From assembly GCF_000376445.1 (NCBI RefSeq), contig NZ_AQXI01000001.1, positions 2,443,734 through 2,507,733 on the forward strand: a stretch of DNA of 64,000 nt, read 5' to 3'. Every line of letters begins with the position of its first letter. The first letter of the stretch is position 1. The notes under the pieces are model-generated. The model was not told where the DNA came from, ran no database searches, and saw only the letters and a program-made list of their open reading frames with translations. Made by a program: the position numbers and the translations under genes. The DNA is from Haladaptatus paucihalophilus DX253 (lineage in GTDB: Archaea > Halobacteriota > Halobacteria > Halobacteriales > Haladaptataceae). Shown here one piece after another: positions 10,350 through 16,805 of the stretch.

Positions 10350-10641
10350 TCTATCCGAACGTCGCGCGTCGGCACACTTAACGGTTTACAGGTGGTCGCG
10401 TACCCCCAGTTGCACGCGTCGTCGAACCCCGAGAAATGCTCACTGCGGAGTGTATTCGACGGTTTGGAGATGACGGAGGGCACGCGCCGTCGCGTAGTGG
10501 TTCCCGTCCGCTATGGTCGGTCGTTCCCCGTGGAAACGCCACCACGCCAGCGCCATCAACTATATTACGATTCGCTCCTTAATATCATCGAATCAGGCAG
10601 TGAAACTACTGGAGACGGACCTGTCCTGACGCCCCCAAACC

Positions 10642-12030
10642 ATGACGCACACACAAGAATTCGAACACCTCCTCGACTGCAAGAACGTCCTCGGCGTCGA
10701 TTACGACGAGGAAACGAACACGCTCACGGTCTTCGTCTCGCAAAAGCTCCCGGACGCGGAACTCGACGACGAGGACAACGTGAAAAAGCGCGTCTCCGGC
10801 GTTACCGTCCGCGTCGAAGACGCGGGCTACGGCGACGAACGCGACGGGTTCGACGCGCTCGCCTTTCTCGAACCCCTCCCCGATGCCGAGGCGGGCCGCC
10901 ACGACCGCCATCGACCGGTCGTCGGCGGTATCAGCGAAATCAACGCGAAATCGACGGCCGCGACCGCCGGGCCGTATCCCGCCCGCGTGACCGACACCGG
11001 CGCCGCGAACTGGGCCGAGTCGGTCTCCGAGGGCGACGTCGTTCGCCTCTCGAACAACCACGTCTACGCCCGGGTGAACGAAGGAGAGTTCGGCGAACCG
11101 GTCATCCAGCCATCGCCGAGGGACGGCGGGAGCATGCCGGACGACAAGACCGGCGAACTGCGCGGCTACGTTACCATCGACGACGGCGCGCTGGTGGACG
11201 TCGCGGCCCGCTCCGTTGACCCGGAGCGGGAATCGCCCGAGTACTACAAGTTGGACGACTCGTGGCCGACGAGCGTCCGCCGCGAGGACTACCGCTCGCT
11301 CAAGGGTCAGACGGTGACGAAGACGGGCCGCACCACCGGCGTTACGAGCGGCGACGTGAAAGCCACCGGCGCGAGCGTCCGCGTGAACTACGGCGACGCG
11401 GGCACCATCAAACTCCGCGACCAACTCATCGCGGGACCGATGTCGAAGGGCGGCGACAGCGGGTCGCCCGTCTTCCTCGATTCGACCGGCGAACTCGTCG
11501 GCCTGCTCTTCGCCGGGTCCGCGCGCCAGACCATCTTCTCCAAAATCGCGGCCGTCGAATCCGAACTCGGCGTCGAACTGCTGACCGAGGAACCCGGCGA
11601 GGGCGGGAGCGGTGGCGGTGGAAGCGGTGGCGGACGCGGCGGCGATGATGGTGGTCGTGGCGGAGACGGTGACGGCGGCCGTGGCGGTACGGGCGGAGGC
11701 GACGATGGGTCAGTTACCTACCGCGAGACGTTCGACACCACGGTCACGGTTTCGACCGACGGCCCGGAACTGTCCTTGGAGTCGTTCTCCGTGTCCGGCC
11801 CGACGGATTCTGGTAAGCAGGTGAAAGCGATCGCCGAGGTGTCCGGCACCGCCGTCGGAACCGGATGGCTCTCCGTGCAGGGGAACCGAACCACGTTCGA
11901 GTTGACCGACGACGACGCCCGCGACGGAGCCTTCGTCCGCGACGTCTCCCTGACCGTCGCAGTCCCCGACTCCTCGACGGATTCCTTCGATTTGCGCGTC
12001 ACCGGCGGCTACGTCGTTCAGTCGTCGTAA
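10642..12030 (+). CDS. Trypsin-fold serine protease, NAL1-like, with Gly-rich linker and C-terminal beta domain
   Basis: 462 residues. Residues 1-85 form an alpha/beta domain of the type that precedes NAL1-like trypsin folds (NVLGVDYDEETNTLTVFVSQK). The protease domain has His140 in LSNNHVYARV, Asp186 in GALVDVAARS and Ser273 in SKGGDSGSPVF, a plausible catalytic triad. A Gly-rich linker (about 316-353, tracts of SGGGGSGGG and GGDGDGGRGG) leads to a C-terminal 110-residue beta-strand-rich domain ending VTGGYVVQSS. No signal peptide, Tat motif or membrane anchor is seen, so it probably acts inside the cell unless exported otherwise. Substrate unknown. A decayed copy of its last 17 codons lies at 12405-12453. 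Confidence 0.78.
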   Translation: MTHTQEFEHLLDCKNVLGVDYDEETNTLTVFVSQKLPDAELDDEDNVKKRVSGVTVRVEDAGYGDERDGFDALAFLEPLPDAEAGRHDRHRPVVGGISEINAKSTAATAGPYPARVTDTGAANWAESVSEGDVVRLSNNHVYARVNEGEFGEPVIQPSPRDGGSMPDDKTGELRGYVTIDDGALVDVAARSVDPERESPEYYKLDDSWPTSVRREDYRSLKGQTVTKTGRTTGVTSGDVKATGASVRVNYGDAGTIKLRDQLIAGPMSKGGDSGSPVFLDSTGELVGLLFAGSARQTIFSKIAAVESELGVELLTEEPGEGGSGGGGSGGGRGGDDGGRGGDGDGGRGGTGGGDDGSVTYRETFDTTVTVSTDGPELSLESFSVSGPTDSGKQVKAIAEVSGTAVGTGWLSVQGNRTTFELTDDDARDGAFVRDVSLTVAVPDSSTDSFDLRVTGGYVVQSS

Positions 12031-12144
12031 CGGCGTTCGAGTCGAGTTGGATCTCATTTTCATCGTTTCAGTAGTTAGTGCTGCCAATCACCCCGAAAAT
12101 CGAGAGGACGACGTCCGAATACAACAAAAACTCGGCGTGAACGA

Positions 12145-12339
12145 TTATCCGCTCTCATACGCGATTTGCCGGAGCCACCAAATGCAGACCATGGACAACA
12201 GTGTCGAGCCGAACATAAGCACGAATTTCAAGACCGAGCCAAACCCAAACAGTTCGCTCACCCTGCTGCCGAGCAAAATACCGACTGCAAGTGAGAGTGA
12301 CCTCGTAGCTAGTCCCACATCTTTCAATGACTCATGCAT
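12145..12339 (-). CDS. Small two-TM membrane protein, unknown function
   Basis: 64 residues (MHESLKDVGLATRS...). Two hydrophobic helices (about 14-28 and 36-56, the second ending MVCIWWLRQ) are separated by a short polar loop, and the tail is IAYESG. ATG 12339 is preceded about 20-27 nt upstream by an AT-rich TATA-like box (CAAATATTTCAAA on the minus strand), consistent with a leaderless start. Base composition is lower in GC than neighbouring core genes. It lies between the protease gene and a decayed copy of that gene's 3' end, suggesting it arrived as an insertion. No family recognised. Confidence 0.55.
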   Translation of the reverse strand: MHESLKDVGLATRSLSLAVGILLGSRVSELFGFGSVLKFVLMFGSTLLSMVCIWWLRQIAYESG

Positions 12340-12404
12340 TACTCTCGATACTGATTTGAAATATTTGAACTCCTCCTATTTCCTTTTGGTCGTGCTCGTT
12401 GCCG

Positions 12405-12453
12405 GACTCGTTCGACGCACGTTACCGGAGGCTACGTCGTTGAGTCGTCGTAA
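12405..12453 (+). pseudogene. Decayed duplicate of the 3' end of the protease gene
   Basis: The 49 nt here match the last 51 nt of the protease gene (11980-12030) at most positions, including ACCGG-GGCTACGTCGTT-AGTCGTCGTAA. A 2-nt deletion breaks the frame (SFD then VTGGYVVESS and stop). This is a relic of a duplicated gene end, 374 bp downstream of the intact one. The intervening DNA carries the small membrane gene at 12145-12339. Confidence 0.6.
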
Positions 12454-12572
12454 TCGCCATCGGAACTGAATGCAAGGCGCACATCTTTCACCCCGCGCCT
12501 CCAGTTCGTTGCGTCCGTGGTGTTCTCGTAGCAGAACGAGGAGGAAAAACGGACGAGAAAACTCGACAGCAT

Positions 12573-12905
12573 TCAGACGACGGCGAAGGTCGCAACGAGG
12601 CTCCAGAGGACGATGCCGAGGAGGTAGAACGTGAGAATCGCTCGGTTGTTCGTGGGGAGCGAGGACCCGACGTGCAACTGTGATGGTGCGGCGTCCGTTT
12701 CTACGAAGTCGTTTCCTTCACCACCTTCTATCGCCATGGTCGGGGCGCTTCCGGTCCGTGCATGGAGAAAGCAGAACACGAACAGGGACGCGATCAGCAG
12801 CAGGCCGATGGCTTTGCCATAGATGTATGCGAGCGGAACGACCGTTATACCCGCTGCGAGGACGGTGTACGCGAGGAGGGCGGAAACGAGAGTGTTTCGT
12901 TCCAT
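12573..12905 (-). CDS. Small membrane protein with three predicted TM helices
   Basis: 110 residues. Hydrophobic helices at about 8-28 (LVSALLAYTVLAAGITVVPL), 32-48 (IGLLLIASLFVFCFLHA) and 88-109 (ILTFYLLGIVLWSLVATFAVV) flank a polar loop of about 38 residues rich in Gly/Glu/Asp/Ser. The ATG at 12905 is the first Met of the open frame. GC content is intermediate. No family recognised; topology predicts the polar loop on the opposite face from the short N terminus. It is isolated, with no obvious operon partner. Confidence 0.6.
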   Translation of the reverse strand: MERNTLVSALLAYTVLAAGITVVPLAYIYGKAIGLLLIASLFVFCFLHARTGSAPTMAIEGGEGNDFVETDAAPSQLHVGSSLPTNNRAILTFYLLGIVLWSLVATFAVV

Positions 12906-13243
12906 AGCTTACTGCAACGAGTTGCAGGCCTAAGTTTTGTGAAGAAATCGATGTCTATTCGATTACGGTATCGAATCCGGCTATTCCGAACTAACAGGGG
13001 AAGTGCAGTCTGATTTCTGGGATTTCATCGCGTTTCGAGATGCGTGATTGGTTCGATAACTGAAGTAGAACATGCGACGGCAGTGAGGTCGAATTTTCGA
13101 ATTTGGCCGGTTTGGACGGTTTACTTCCTGTGGGCAGTATAAGCGGTAGTGGAAAATATTCGGGATCTCGAATTGAGCTGGATACAGCACGTCATGCAAT
13201 ATAAGCGGAGATTTATTACCGCTTACACAGAATTATAGCGACA
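12906..13243. other. Gene-free AT-rich spacer with TAAGCGG half-sites
   Basis: No convincing ORF on either strand. The stretch is AT-rich relative to the window. It carries a TAAGCGG motif at 13140-13146 and, 62 bp further, an inverted pair TAAGCGG/CCGCTTA at 13202-13225 surrounding a TATA-like TTTATTA just upstream of the next gene. It probably functions as promoter and operator DNA. Confidence 0.5.
13202..13225 (+). promoter_or_regulatory. Inverted repeat straddling a TATA box (putative operator)
   Basis: TAAGCGG (13202-13208) and its exact complement CCGCTTA (13219-13225) flank the 10-nt spacer AGATTTATTA, which contains the probable TATA element. The element is centred about 29 nt before the ATG at 13244, the position expected for a leaderless archaeal promoter. 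A dimeric repressor bound here would block TBP. A third half-site lies at 13140-13146. Confidence 0.45.
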
Positions 13244-13432
13244 ATGAGTACAGAACATCGCCGCACCCGGGGCAATGTGATCGGTATCGTGTCCATCTTA
13301 CTCACTGCAATAGCGGTTCAACTCAGTGGATCACCACTCCCGGATTTCTTTGGCCTTGATACATTCGTTTGGTTCACTTTATTTGGACTCGGTGTGATTA
13401 TACTACACACGGTGGGCGTTTTCGGAAAGTAA
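13244..13432 (+). CDS. Small two-TM membrane protein
   Basis: 62 residues with a basic N terminus (MSTEHRRTRGN) and two hydrophobic helices (about 12-29, IGIVSILLTAIAVQLSG, and 38-58, VWFTLFGLGVIILHTVGVF). The ATG at 13244 is positioned for leaderless translation behind the TTTATTA box. Base composition is poorer in GC than core genes. No family recognised. The inverted repeat around its promoter suggests a dedicated repressor or autoregulated module. Confidence 0.6.
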   Translation: MSTEHRRTRGNVIGIVSILLTAIAVQLSGSPLPDFFGLDTFVWFTLFGLGVIILHTVGVFGK

Positions 13433-13464
13433 CTTCTTCAGGTAGAAGAGGTCTACTAACACAC

Positions 13465-13578
13465 ATGGATGCCCTCGGTGAGAAGATCATCCAAGCCGAT
13501 GCCCTTCTCTGGCACATCAGTAACGTTGGTGTTGGGATCGCGGTCTTCGTTGGTTGGCTCAAAACGACTATACAGTAG
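13465..13578 (+). CDS. Candidate 37-residue micro-membrane protein
   Basis: ATG at 13465 opens a 37-codon frame (MDALGEKIIQADALLWHISN... ending FVGWLKTTIQ) with one amphipathic N-terminal stretch and one hydrophobic helix (VGVGIAVFVGWL). It lies 32 bp after the previous membrane gene on the same strand and could be a second cistron. A longer in-frame reading upstream runs through the previous gene in another frame and is unlikely. The call is short and uncertain. Confidence 0.3.
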   Translation: MDALGEKIIQADALLWHISNVGVGIAVFVGWLKTTIQ

Positions 13579-13581
13579 AAA

Positions 13582-14682
13582 TCAGATAACAAACCAGTTG
13601 AAGATCGCAACGACAACGAGTAGCGGTGCAAGTACGCCGTATTTTACTAGCCGCCTCGTAAGATAGCGACGAAATTCCGTCGATTCTTGATCCGTAACCG
13701 CTAGAGGTAACGCATCAGTTCCGTAGAGTACTGGAGTTCCGTCCTCAATACGAAGGTTCCCGTATACTGTGAGTGTTGTTCCGTTCTCTATGGGCTTTGC
13801 CTGGACGTAGTACTGGCGTGCTCTGTCGCCTTTTGACTCGATCAGATCGATAACGTCTTCGATCTCATGTACGGTCTCGGTGCTCGTCAGATGGATGTAT
13901 GGCGACGACCACATACTGGGCGAGACACTGATGGTTCTTGGTATTGTTGAGATGGTTGCCTCGGATAATGGAATTGTATTATGGGTGCGGATAAGCCACG
14001 TCGGATCGATCTTTGCAGTTCCCTCGTTGGTAGTAATCGAGAATTCCCCACATTCGATTCCGGACTCGTACCCCACTTTAGCCCGAGATATCGTTCTATC
14101 TTTTAGATCGATAACATAGAGGTTATCGCTATGTGAGATCCGCCACAGATATGCTCCTACTGCTGGATTATAAGCCGGAAATAGCTGGGTAGATCCCTCT
14201 GGAGGTGAGTCGACGGTTATGTCTCCTCGTAATAGGACTGTATCTCCTGTGTCAGTAATCTGTTTTTCTGTGTATGTCCCCGAGCGAATCAGCCAAAATA
14301 TCTTGAGCGTACTGATTGCGTTGCTAAAATATGGTACCGACAATACTCCCGAAACTAGTGAGATAAAAATATTCAGTTCCATATACAGCCATCCATGCGT
14401 AAATGACGTATATATTTGCTGAATAGTCGTCTGAACCGGTCTGGATGCTCTCTTCGTAATATGAGAGAACTCATATCGGGTTTCTAGAATTCTTTGAGTT
14501 TGATACGCTTGCCAGTCTCGCTTAGTTCTGCGTAGTGCAACATGAGGCAGTGAGACAAACGGATCACAATCAATCCACTCTCCATATACCAGTGGACCAC
14601 GTTTACTCCCGTCCGAAAAGCGGAAGCAGACGTGCTTACCGCCGCTACTCGATACGAACCGAATGTAATGGGTGTTTCTCAT
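13582..14682 (-). CDS. GIDE-like membrane protein on low-GC DNA
   Basis: 366 residues. After a 90-residue N-terminal region come a hydrophobic segment (about 96-118, LYMELNIFISLVSGVLSVPYF) and a beta-rich soluble region of about 200 residues. The pattern resembles the GIDE/MULAN membrane domain of haloarchaeal proteins: GDTVLLRGDITVDSP, a central aromatic core, a late VQAKPIENGTTLTVYGNL, and GTPVLYGTDALPLAVTDQ. A C-terminal TM helix follows (about 345-364). The ATG at 14682 has a strong GGAGGAGGA just upstream. Codon use is clearly more A/T-rich than neighbours, pointing to recent acquisition. The GIDE assignment is by pattern only; eukaryotic relatives are RING ligases, but no RING is present here. 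Confidence 0.6.
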   Translation of the reverse strand: MRNTHYIRFVSSSGGKHVCFRFSDGSKRGPLVYGEWIDCDPFVSLPHVALRRTKRDWQAYQTQRILETRYEFSHITKRASRPVQTTIQQIYTSFTHGWLYMELNIFISLVSGVLSVPYFSNAISTLKIFWLIRSGTYTEKQITDTGDTVLLRGDITVDSPPEGSTQLFPAYNPAVGAYLWRISHSDNLYVIDLKDRTISRAKVGYESGIECGEFSITTNEGTAKIDPTWLIRTHNTIPLSEATISTIPRTISVSPSMWSSPYIHLTSTETVHEIEDVIDLIESKGDRARQYYVQAKPIENGTTLTVYGNLRIEDGTPVLYGTDALPLAVTDQESTEFRRYLTRRLVKYGVLAPLLVVVAIFNWFVI

Positions 14683-14868
14683 TCCTCCTCCACCGATAGT
14701 GAGAAATGTAGTGTGGCAGGAGAATCACGGAGTGATACCGAGGACGAGGGAGAACCGATTACGGACTCGGTTTGACCGTGGTTAGAATGGACAACGGGGA
14801 ATCCAATTCAACCATCCCGCGGGTATCGAGAACCGAGGCTTAAACACCCCGTCGGACCATGCCCCGGT

Positions 14869-15792
14869 ATGCAAACCTGTCGAACGCTGCTCGTGGACGC
14901 GTTCACGGACGAACCGCTGGCCGGAAACGCCGCCGGTGTGGTTCCCGACGCCGACGATTTGACGGCCGACCAGATGCAGGCCATCGCCCGCGAACTCTCG
15001 GTGAGCGAGACGGCCTTTTTTGTCGAAAGCGAGGACGCGGACCGCCGGGTCCGGTTCTTCACGCCGACGACGGAAATCGACCTCTGCGGACACGCGACGG
15101 TCGCCTCGCACGTCCACCTGCTCGAAGACGACCGCATCGAACCGGGAACGCACGCGCTCGAAACGAACGTCGGCGTGCTGGACATCGAGGTGGAAACGGA
15201 CGGCACCGTCTGGATGACCCAAGACGACCCCGACGTCGAACCCGTCGATATCGAGTACGAACGACTGGGTGCGGCGCTCGGCATCGACCCGGCGGCGCTC
15301 CGCGATGTGGGCGAGGACCTCCCGCTGGCGGTTTCCTCGACGGGACTTCCCATTCTCATCGTCCCCGTCAACTTCCTCGAACACGTCGGCGGCGCGGACC
15401 CTGACATGGAGGCCATCGAGGAAATCGGGAACGAGGTCGGCGCGCTCGGCGTCTACGCCTTCACGTTCGACGCCATCGAGGCGGGCTCGACGCTCCACGG
15501 GCGGATGTTCGCCCCCGCGGTGGGGATTCCGGAGGACCCGGTGACGGGCACGGCGAGCGGGTCGGTCGCGGCGTATCTGGACGCGTACGACGCGTTCGAC
15601 AACGAGGGCGAATCCGGGAATTTCCCGGACGAACTCCGCTTGGAGCAGGGTCACTTCGTTGACCGACCGGGATACGTGCGCGTGCGGGTCGATAATGAAA
15701 CCGGCGTGCGAGTCGGGGGTCGGGCGACGACCGCGCTGGACGGCAGTTTGGTCGCCCCCGACGCGGCGGACGACGACATCATCGAGTGCTGA
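14869..15792 (+). CDS. PhzF-family isomerase/epimerase
   Basis: The PhzF fold comprises two similar diaminopimelate-epimerase-like halves. The 307-residue product has the family length. It opens CRTLLVDAFTDEPLAGNAAGVV, with the catalytic Glu in the SVSETAFF segment (about residue 46) and the family motif RFFTPTTEIDLCGHATVAS (about 65-83). The second half carries the glycine-rich GIPEDPVTGTASGSVAAYL (about 217-235). Members isomerise phenazine precursors or unknown small acids; no phenazine genes are present, so the substrate is unknown. The ATG at 14869 precedes the first strand directly. It appears monocistronic. Confidence 0.9.
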   Translation: MQTCRTLLVDAFTDEPLAGNAAGVVPDADDLTADQMQAIARELSVSETAFFVESEDADRRVRFFTPTTEIDLCGHATVASHVHLLEDDRIEPGTHALETNVGVLDIEVETDGTVWMTQDDPDVEPVDIEYERLGAALGIDPAALRDVGEDLPLAVSSTGLPILIVPVNFLEHVGGADPDMEAIEEIGNEVGALGVYAFTFDAIEAGSTLHGRMFAPAVGIPEDPVTGTASGSVAAYLDAYDAFDNEGESGNFPDELRLEQGHFVDRPGYVRVRVDNETGVRVGGRATTALDGSLVAPDAADDDIIEC

Positions 15793-15810
15793 CGACGGAC
15801 GCGAACGACG

Positions 15811-16167
15811 TTATCGAATCCGACGATAGTCGTACGCTCCCCGGATATTTTCGTGAAAGTACGACCCGTGTGAGCGGGCGCTCAGGAGTTCCTGATACAC
15901 CGATTGGGGAACGTCGGCGTACCGATACACGCCGCCGCTGTGGAACTCGATTTCGAGCGTCTCCTCCTCCGGGTCGTAGCCGACGCTCGCCAAACTGGTC
16001 GAATCTACGGGCGTCCGGGTTCGCGTCACGGACGCCAGCATGTCGTACGGGACGTATCCGACGACGCCCGCGTGGCGTCCCCGGAGGACGATTCCCTCGT
16101 TCCCTTCCTCGAATTCGTCGCACTCGATTCGTCTCGTTCGTTCGCCGTCGCGTGTGCGCGCTTTCAT
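15811..16167 (-). CDS. KTSC-domain protein
   Basis: 118 residues from ATG 16167. The C-terminal KTSC domain (about 53-118) is recognisable from VDSTSLASVGYDPEEETLEIEF, VYRYADVPQSVYQELLSARSHGSYFHENIR and the terminal YDYRRIR. KTSC domains occur with RNA-related and phage-type proteins, but their role is poorly defined. The preceding 50 residues are charged with a short beta stretch (GIVLRGRHAGVVGYVPYDML). The longer upstream frame crosses the divergent promoter region of the next gene and is rejected. Its promoter region is shared with the HTH gene at 16348. Confidence 0.78.
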   Translation of the reverse strand: MKARTRDGERTRRIECDEFEEGNEGIVLRGRHAGVVGYVPYDMLASVTRTRTPVDSTSLASVGYDPEEETLEIEFHSGGVYRYADVPQSVYQELLSARSHGSYFHENIRGAYDYRRIR

Positions 16168-16347
16168 CGCCGAAGCCACGATTCGAACGACCCTCAACGC
16201 ATCGGCCCGCAAATCATTGCTGTAAGTTATACAGAGGCACAGAAAGTTATTTATGTATAATCGCCATCTTCTATGGTGTGCCAATCCGGACGGTTCTACA
16301 CGTCCATTTATCCAGTCCGTCGTGCTGTCCGGGTGGTCGGAGAAGCC

Positions 16348-16686
16348 ATGACTAACAGCGAGACGCCAACCGAAACCGGAATTTCTACAGCCGCACCAAG
16401 CACGCGCGACCTGTCGAACGTCTTCGACGCTTTGCAACGCCCGGAACGTCGAACTGTCCTATCGTTCCTTCACGAGTGCGACGCCGACACCATCGAGTTG
16501 GACGAACTCGGAGCGCACGTTTCGTCTCGATTGACCGGTACGGATGAAACCCTCGTCCGGTCGATGCTTCATCACCACCATCTTCCCAAGCTGGCGGACT
16601 ACGGGTTCATCGATTACGACAGAACGACCCTCGTAATCCGTCCGTGCGCCGACGTCGATGAGCTACTTCCCCTGTTCGTAGAATGA
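16348..16686 (+). CDS. Winged-helix protein of the DUF7344 type
   Basis: 112 residues. After a polar N terminus (MTNSETPTETG), residues 25-110 match the small haloarchaeal winged-helix family found in many putative regulators: DLSNVFDALQRPERRTVLSFLHE, then LDELGAHVSSRL, SMLHHHHLPKLADYGFIDYDRTTLVI. These usually act as small DNA-binding regulators. The ATG at 16348 is preferred over in-frame codons back to 16273, because the earlier codons lie in a probable 5' leader behind the box TTTATGTATAA (about 16250-16260). Target genes unknown; KTSC is divergent. Confidence 0.78.
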   Translation: MTNSETPTETGISTAAPSTRDLSNVFDALQRPERRTVLSFLHECDADTIELDELGAHVSSRLTGTDETLVRSMLHHHHLPKLADYGFIDYDRTTLVIRPCADVDELLPLFVE

Positions 16687-16805
16687 TGAAAATCGCCCCC
16701 GGCGTCCTGGTGGCGATTCCAGAGTATATTCGGTTCTGAGTTACTTTTCCACGACGAACTGGTCGGAACATTCTTTATGTACCTGCTTGTTTCCCCCCAT
16801 ACGCA

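Follow-up and report, generated by a model that had tools for sequence, protein, structure and literature searches.

The stretch between a protease-like gene and a PhzF-family gene of Haladaptatus paucihalophilus DX253, at positions 12031-14868 of the 64,000-nucleotide piece of contig NZ_AQXI01000001.1 analysed here (2,443,734 to 2,507,733, forward strand; the window), is accessory DNA of low guanine-cytosine (GC) content. It is very probably a patchwork of imported and broken DNA pieces of mosaic origin, which are, in order, an insert of this genome alone, a 110-amino-acid (110-aa) gene, a dispersed repeat, a 62-aa gene, a fragment of a 99-aa gene, a GIDE-like gene and another dispersed repeat. 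The main cargo would be one intact gene, encoding a two-segment membrane protein of GIDE/BAM-domain type. Tentatively, this GIDE-like protein is read as an orphan immunity-type membrane protein, and the secreted cysteine-rich neighbour of some of its relatives gives indirect support to a conflict-related role.

The base composition was compared with that of the window. GC content was 0.496 (49.6%) at 12031-14868 versus 0.630 (63.0%) for the whole window, and the lowest value among 1110 equal-length positions outside the stretch was 0.58 (2838-bp windows, mean 0.630, sd 0.031). GC at third codon positions (GC3) was likewise lower, with 0.476 in the GIDE-like and 62-aa genes versus 0.836-0.846 in the protease, PhzF and next large gene. 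The two flanking genes, both present in 9/9 Haladaptatus genomes, are as follows.

10642..12030, + strand: protease-like gene, left flank, 462 aa; its Pfam Nal1_C and Peptidase_S46 matches are weak, both under the cut-off
14869..15792, + strand: PhzF-family gene, right flank (PF02567, E 2.8e-66)

The gap between these genes is 2841 bp in the own genome, 3151 bp in the closest relative (G161) and only 194-745 bp in six of the eight congeners, and in G161 the same slot is filled by different DNA, including a polysaccharide-deacetylase-like gene. In G152 the gap is 33480 bp; a reading of it as an insertion hot spot was rejected, because the SMC, ScpA and topoisomerase genes inside (L065, L066, G152:C21) make it look like a chromosomal rearrangement breakpoint. 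The low-GC stretch had matches in 19 plasmid records, every one of them from Haladaptatus. Both the drop in base composition and the accessory character proposed in the preliminary description were thereby confirmed, with the stretch absent or replaced in close relatives; uniform composition combined with conserved synteny, which would have spoken against accessory DNA, did not occur.

The pieces of the patchwork are listed below, with G161:C7 denoting an accessory contig of the closest relative (GC 0.511).

11994..12039, unstranded: protease 3' end, first copy of a 46-nt direct repeat whose two copies are 83% identical
12075..12462, unstranded: insert ending in a degenerate second protease 3' end (12417-12462), absent from G161 and the other seven congeners
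12573..12905, − strand: 110-aa membrane protein with three hydrophobic segments, of a conserved family, in the same place in G161
12961..13155, + strand: dispersed repeat L, 66 matches in 9/9 Haladaptatus genomes, window copy counted
13244..13432, + strand: gene for a 62-aa two-segment membrane protein, conserved in four other Haladaptatus genomes at unlinked places
13451..13552, + strand: inner part of a 99-aa gene with both ends broken off, matching G161:C7 at 94% DNA identity
13582..14382, − strand: gene for the GIDE-like membrane protein, 266 aa, with two hydrophobic segments (residues 5-23, 248-266) and a ratio of nonsynonymous to synonymous substitution rates (dN/dS) of 0.23 versus G161
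14383..14682, − strand: upstream DNA wrongly counted into a 366-aa open reading frame (ORF), with stop codons in the homologous DNA
14497..14607, + strand: dispersed repeat R, of mosaic structure, with 41 matches in 8/9 Haladaptatus genomes, window copy counted

DNA matches in the same place of G161 were found for window positions 10545-12060, 12515-13153 and 14528-16800, and the segments 13451-13552 and 13547-14575 matched two sites about 9 kb apart on G161:C7. About 6 nt are common to both of these segments at their joint (13547-13552), indicating microhomology. Repeat R is itself the junction of the GIDE segment with the PhzF flank (common stretch 14528-14575), and its copies have a common core with differing left and right arms. 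Foreign low-GC DNA has very probably entered the protease-phzF intergenic site stepwise, the pieces being joined where dispersed Haladaptatus repeats or a short microhomology lie.

The dispersed intergenic repeats L and R may represent sites of recombination or vestigial transposon ends; several copies of both end in the same last bases, TATAAGCGGMAGTGGA-like as judged by eye. Repeat L was also considered as a structured RNA and rejected, with an RNAalifold energy of 0.0 in the forward direction (shuffles lower on average) and -1.14 in the reverse direction (z -1.23), and no Rfam family was matched by it. The 46-nt direct repeat (11994-12039, 12417-12462) flanks the insert found only in the own genome and may reflect gene-end integration or the leftover of a second protease copy; within the nine Haladaptatus genomes, the other matches of 12075-12462 were protease 3' ends alone.

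For the GIDE-like gene, a protein of 366 aa had been described, which is over-called because stop codons are present in the closest homologous DNA, the repeat lies inside, and the extension is missing from relatives. The homologue on G161:C7 is 266 aa with the same start methionine, and stops occur in its upstream homologous DNA. The first 100 codons of the 366-aa ORF include repeat R, and, G161 aside, the strongest relatives in the order aligned only from about residue 103. The gene is accordingly 266 aa, and its dN/dS shows that the protein is kept by purifying selection. Relatives were collected from an order-wide sample of 392 genomes out of 400 requested, spread evenly over a larger set, and alignment A1 contained 25 of them together with the window protein (L011, L015, L024 and L014 (partial) were left out of 29 loci). 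The resemblance to GIDE noted in the preliminary description was upheld by way of homologues: six of the 26 alignment members matched Pfam GIDE (PF12483; best E 5.4e-06) and the relatives align along the 266-aa protein, though the window protein itself matched no Pfam (E 1), NCBIfam or PADLOC model. It is therefore termed GIDE-like through its relatives, not through a model match of its own.

As in GIDE/BAM-domain proteins (MAPL/MUL1 in eukaryotes), hydropathy predicts a domain enclosed by two terminal membrane segments; unlike in these proteins, a RING domain is absent. An AlphaFold2 model from an alignment of six sequences had a predicted local distance difference test (pLDDT) score of 31. 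Matches to the GIDE region were found in 41/392 genomes (G166, with the repeat only, was left out, and G147 contributed a short fragment), and the family also occurs on plasmids (7 records). PDB sequence searches, phage records and viral contigs gave no lead.

To describe the neighbourhoods of the family, an all-against-all comparison was made of the ORFs surrounding 26 GIDE loci. Besides ABC transporters, the commonest direct neighbour of GIDE genes was a protein of about 270 aa with a twin-arginine translocation (Tat) signal and six invariant C-terminal cysteines, found at 5/26 loci immediately upstream of GIDE on the same strand. One of these pairs is from Haloferax mediterranei (WP_004060528.1, secreted, beside WP_004060527.1, GIDE-like), with four other genomes among the five paired loci, and a sixth pair (G192:C9) was obtained from a search that had not been seeded with it. 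The paired secreted protein may resemble halocin C8. ABC transporter ATPases, present in 8/26 GIDE neighbourhoods, were not taken as significant since such genes are common and the count is without background. On Haloferax mediterranei plasmid pHME132, a gene for a Tat-exported six-cysteine protein (L150:4910-5731) is located directly upstream of a GIDE-like gene (L150:5860-6675).

A profile built from five GIDE-adjacent seeds detected the secreted cysteine-rich family in 14/392 genomes. When 18 loci of this family were followed downstream, GIDE was next on the same strand in five (four seeds and G192:C9), while a multi-segment membrane protein of the DUF6498 family (PF20108) was next in L181, L183 and L192 (3/14 non-seed loci), above the Pfam cut-off. 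The DUF6498 proteins occupy the same position behind secreted family members as the GIDE-like proteins, from which they differ in family and in having several membrane segments. In a 33-row tree, the window and G161 proteins fell into a supported 9-row group (99/97) together with the paired proteins of G184, G066 and G192:C1, so that this group holds three of the six paired proteins, indicating kinship of the window protein with paired relatives. Haloferax sp. Q22 (L201), a halocin producer according to PMC6759562, carries a GIDE-like gene of a clade in which pairing was not seen.

On the basis of these pairings, the window protein is proposed, tentatively, as an orphan immunity-type membrane protein. 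It would be located in the cytoplasmic membrane with a soluble domain between its two membrane segments, and would block or bind the Tat-exported cysteine-rich protein of other haloarchaea. We infer an antimicrobial action of the secreted partner, a protective role of the GIDE-like protein and the persistence of this role in the orphan. The wider proposition is more doubtful, namely that haloarchaeal GIDE-domain proteins confer immunity to Tat-exported six-cysteine antimicrobials, are exchangeable with DUF6498 proteins and travel on accessory DNA as orphan protectors. Makarova et al. 2019 (mBio) reportedly treats antimicrobial peptides and polymorphic toxins of archaea. Haloferax mediterranei, itself a paired host, has been shown to make protease-activated antagonistic precursors, and others are said to remain (PMC12893001). 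Like HmHapP (HFX_0892) of that study and like Tat-exported halocins, some GIDE neighbours are Tat-exported haloarchaeal proteins, one of them in that very strain; the paired protein would be set apart by its six-cysteine C-terminal region. No link of GIDE with archaeocin or halocin immunity, or with DUF6498, was found in titles and abstract openings of the open literature.

Several observations weigh against the orphan immunity proposal. The secreted partner is lacking at 21/26 GIDE loci, no secreted cysteine-rich gene was found near the window or G161:C7 GIDE copies, and the secreted family was found in 0/9 Haladaptatus genomes. Within the GIDE pairs the spacing is about 126-203 bp, a distance that does not by itself imply co-transcription. 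The 14 non-seed loci of the secreted family, which were detected with a profile seeded from GIDE-adjacent loci, comprised one with GIDE, three with DUF6498 and ten with neither, and no known halocin or bacteriocin family was matched. The identity of the window protein to the paired relatives L006 and L007 in alignment A1 is only 34% and 31%, and the paired label was not clustered on the tree (five changes, 127/500 shuffles as low).

The same plasmid-like mosaic could also carry a GIDE-like protein that functions in membrane housekeeping, such as quality control or envelope stress, with the secreted neighbours as a side association and the gene as an ordinary accessory remnant. This reading falls somewhat short of even probability and is rated slightly above orphan immunity. 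It is favoured by the unpaired majority of GIDE loci, by the scattered occurrence of the family over genomes and plasmids, and by the lack of a match to any defence or toxin family among those searched. It is, however, hard to ascribe to chance that a rare secreted family is closely paired with GIDE on one strand at six places, or that DUF6498 takes the slot of GIDE at others.

An origin of the patch as one integrated mobile element, complete with ends and an integrase of its own, is improbable. Repeats L and R, which share one orientation, lie on either side of the 62-aa gene and the GIDE part, the 46-nt direct repeat flanks a 64-aa ORF, and in Haladaptatus pallidirubidus L and R flank two different small genes about 1 kb apart (L115:3001-4057), all of which would fit such an element. 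However, no integrase or transposase was recognised among the ORFs listed or Pfam-scanned between protease and PhzF, the parts match separate places in G161, and the copies of L and R differ in their boundaries.

The remaining features of the stretch are a small ORF and a palindrome.

12145..12339, − strand: 64-aa ORF of doubtful coding status, with a single hydrophobic segment
13202..13225, + strand: palindrome TAAGCGG-N10-CCGCTTA, preceding the 62-aa gene

Four small membrane proteins had been described in the stretch, and two of them stood up to comparison. The 110-aa gene (dN/dS 0.17; family in 34/392 genomes of the order) and the 62-aa gene (dN/dS 0.15-0.29 versus three of four Haladaptatus homologues; homologues in 9/392 genomes, own counted) are conserved and under purifying selection. 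The other two did not: for the 64-aa ORF a search of 28 family genomes gave its own copy and two weak matches but no close relative, and the smallest ORF (13465-13578, 37 aa) covers the broken 99-aa-gene fragment, whose identity comes from DNA alignments. The palindrome was confirmed, with one match versus 0.05 expected with up to two mismatches allowed, but it is not kept upstream of three homologues. Repeat-like sequence was present upstream of the 62-aa gene in 3/4 aligned loci, window counted.

A single membrane-acting defence or stress module formed by the GIDE-like protein and the small membrane proteins, as the preliminary description had suggested, is very improbable. The genes are direct neighbours in the window, each of their products is hydrophobic, and G161:C7 likewise has small ORFs beside its GIDE-like gene. 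However, the comparison of neighbours found no small membrane neighbour common to the window and the 26 GIDE loci, homologues of the 62-aa and 110-aa genes occur apart from GIDE, one supposed member is a broken fragment, and PADLOC gave no defence match for four window proteins. The module was rejected on the grounds of the unlinked homologues and the all-against-all comparison. A ubiquitin-like E3 ligase, as the Pfam domain title 'E3 Ubiquitin ligase' would imply, is hardly credible, because the second membrane segment is the end of the protein and leaves no RING domain, and according to PMC4457424 no prokaryotic sequence of that study had a RING.

The patch is mainly a worked case in which an apparent module was resolved into separate pieces, with one over-called and one broken gene. 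PMC4457424 treats the question of what conserved function the BAM/GIDE domain has as an open one, and with the rare secreted partner beside prokaryotic GIDE genes one answer becomes testable in the genetically tractable Haloferax mediterranei. If the immunity proposal were true, the GIDE/BAM domain would gain a function in microbial antagonism.

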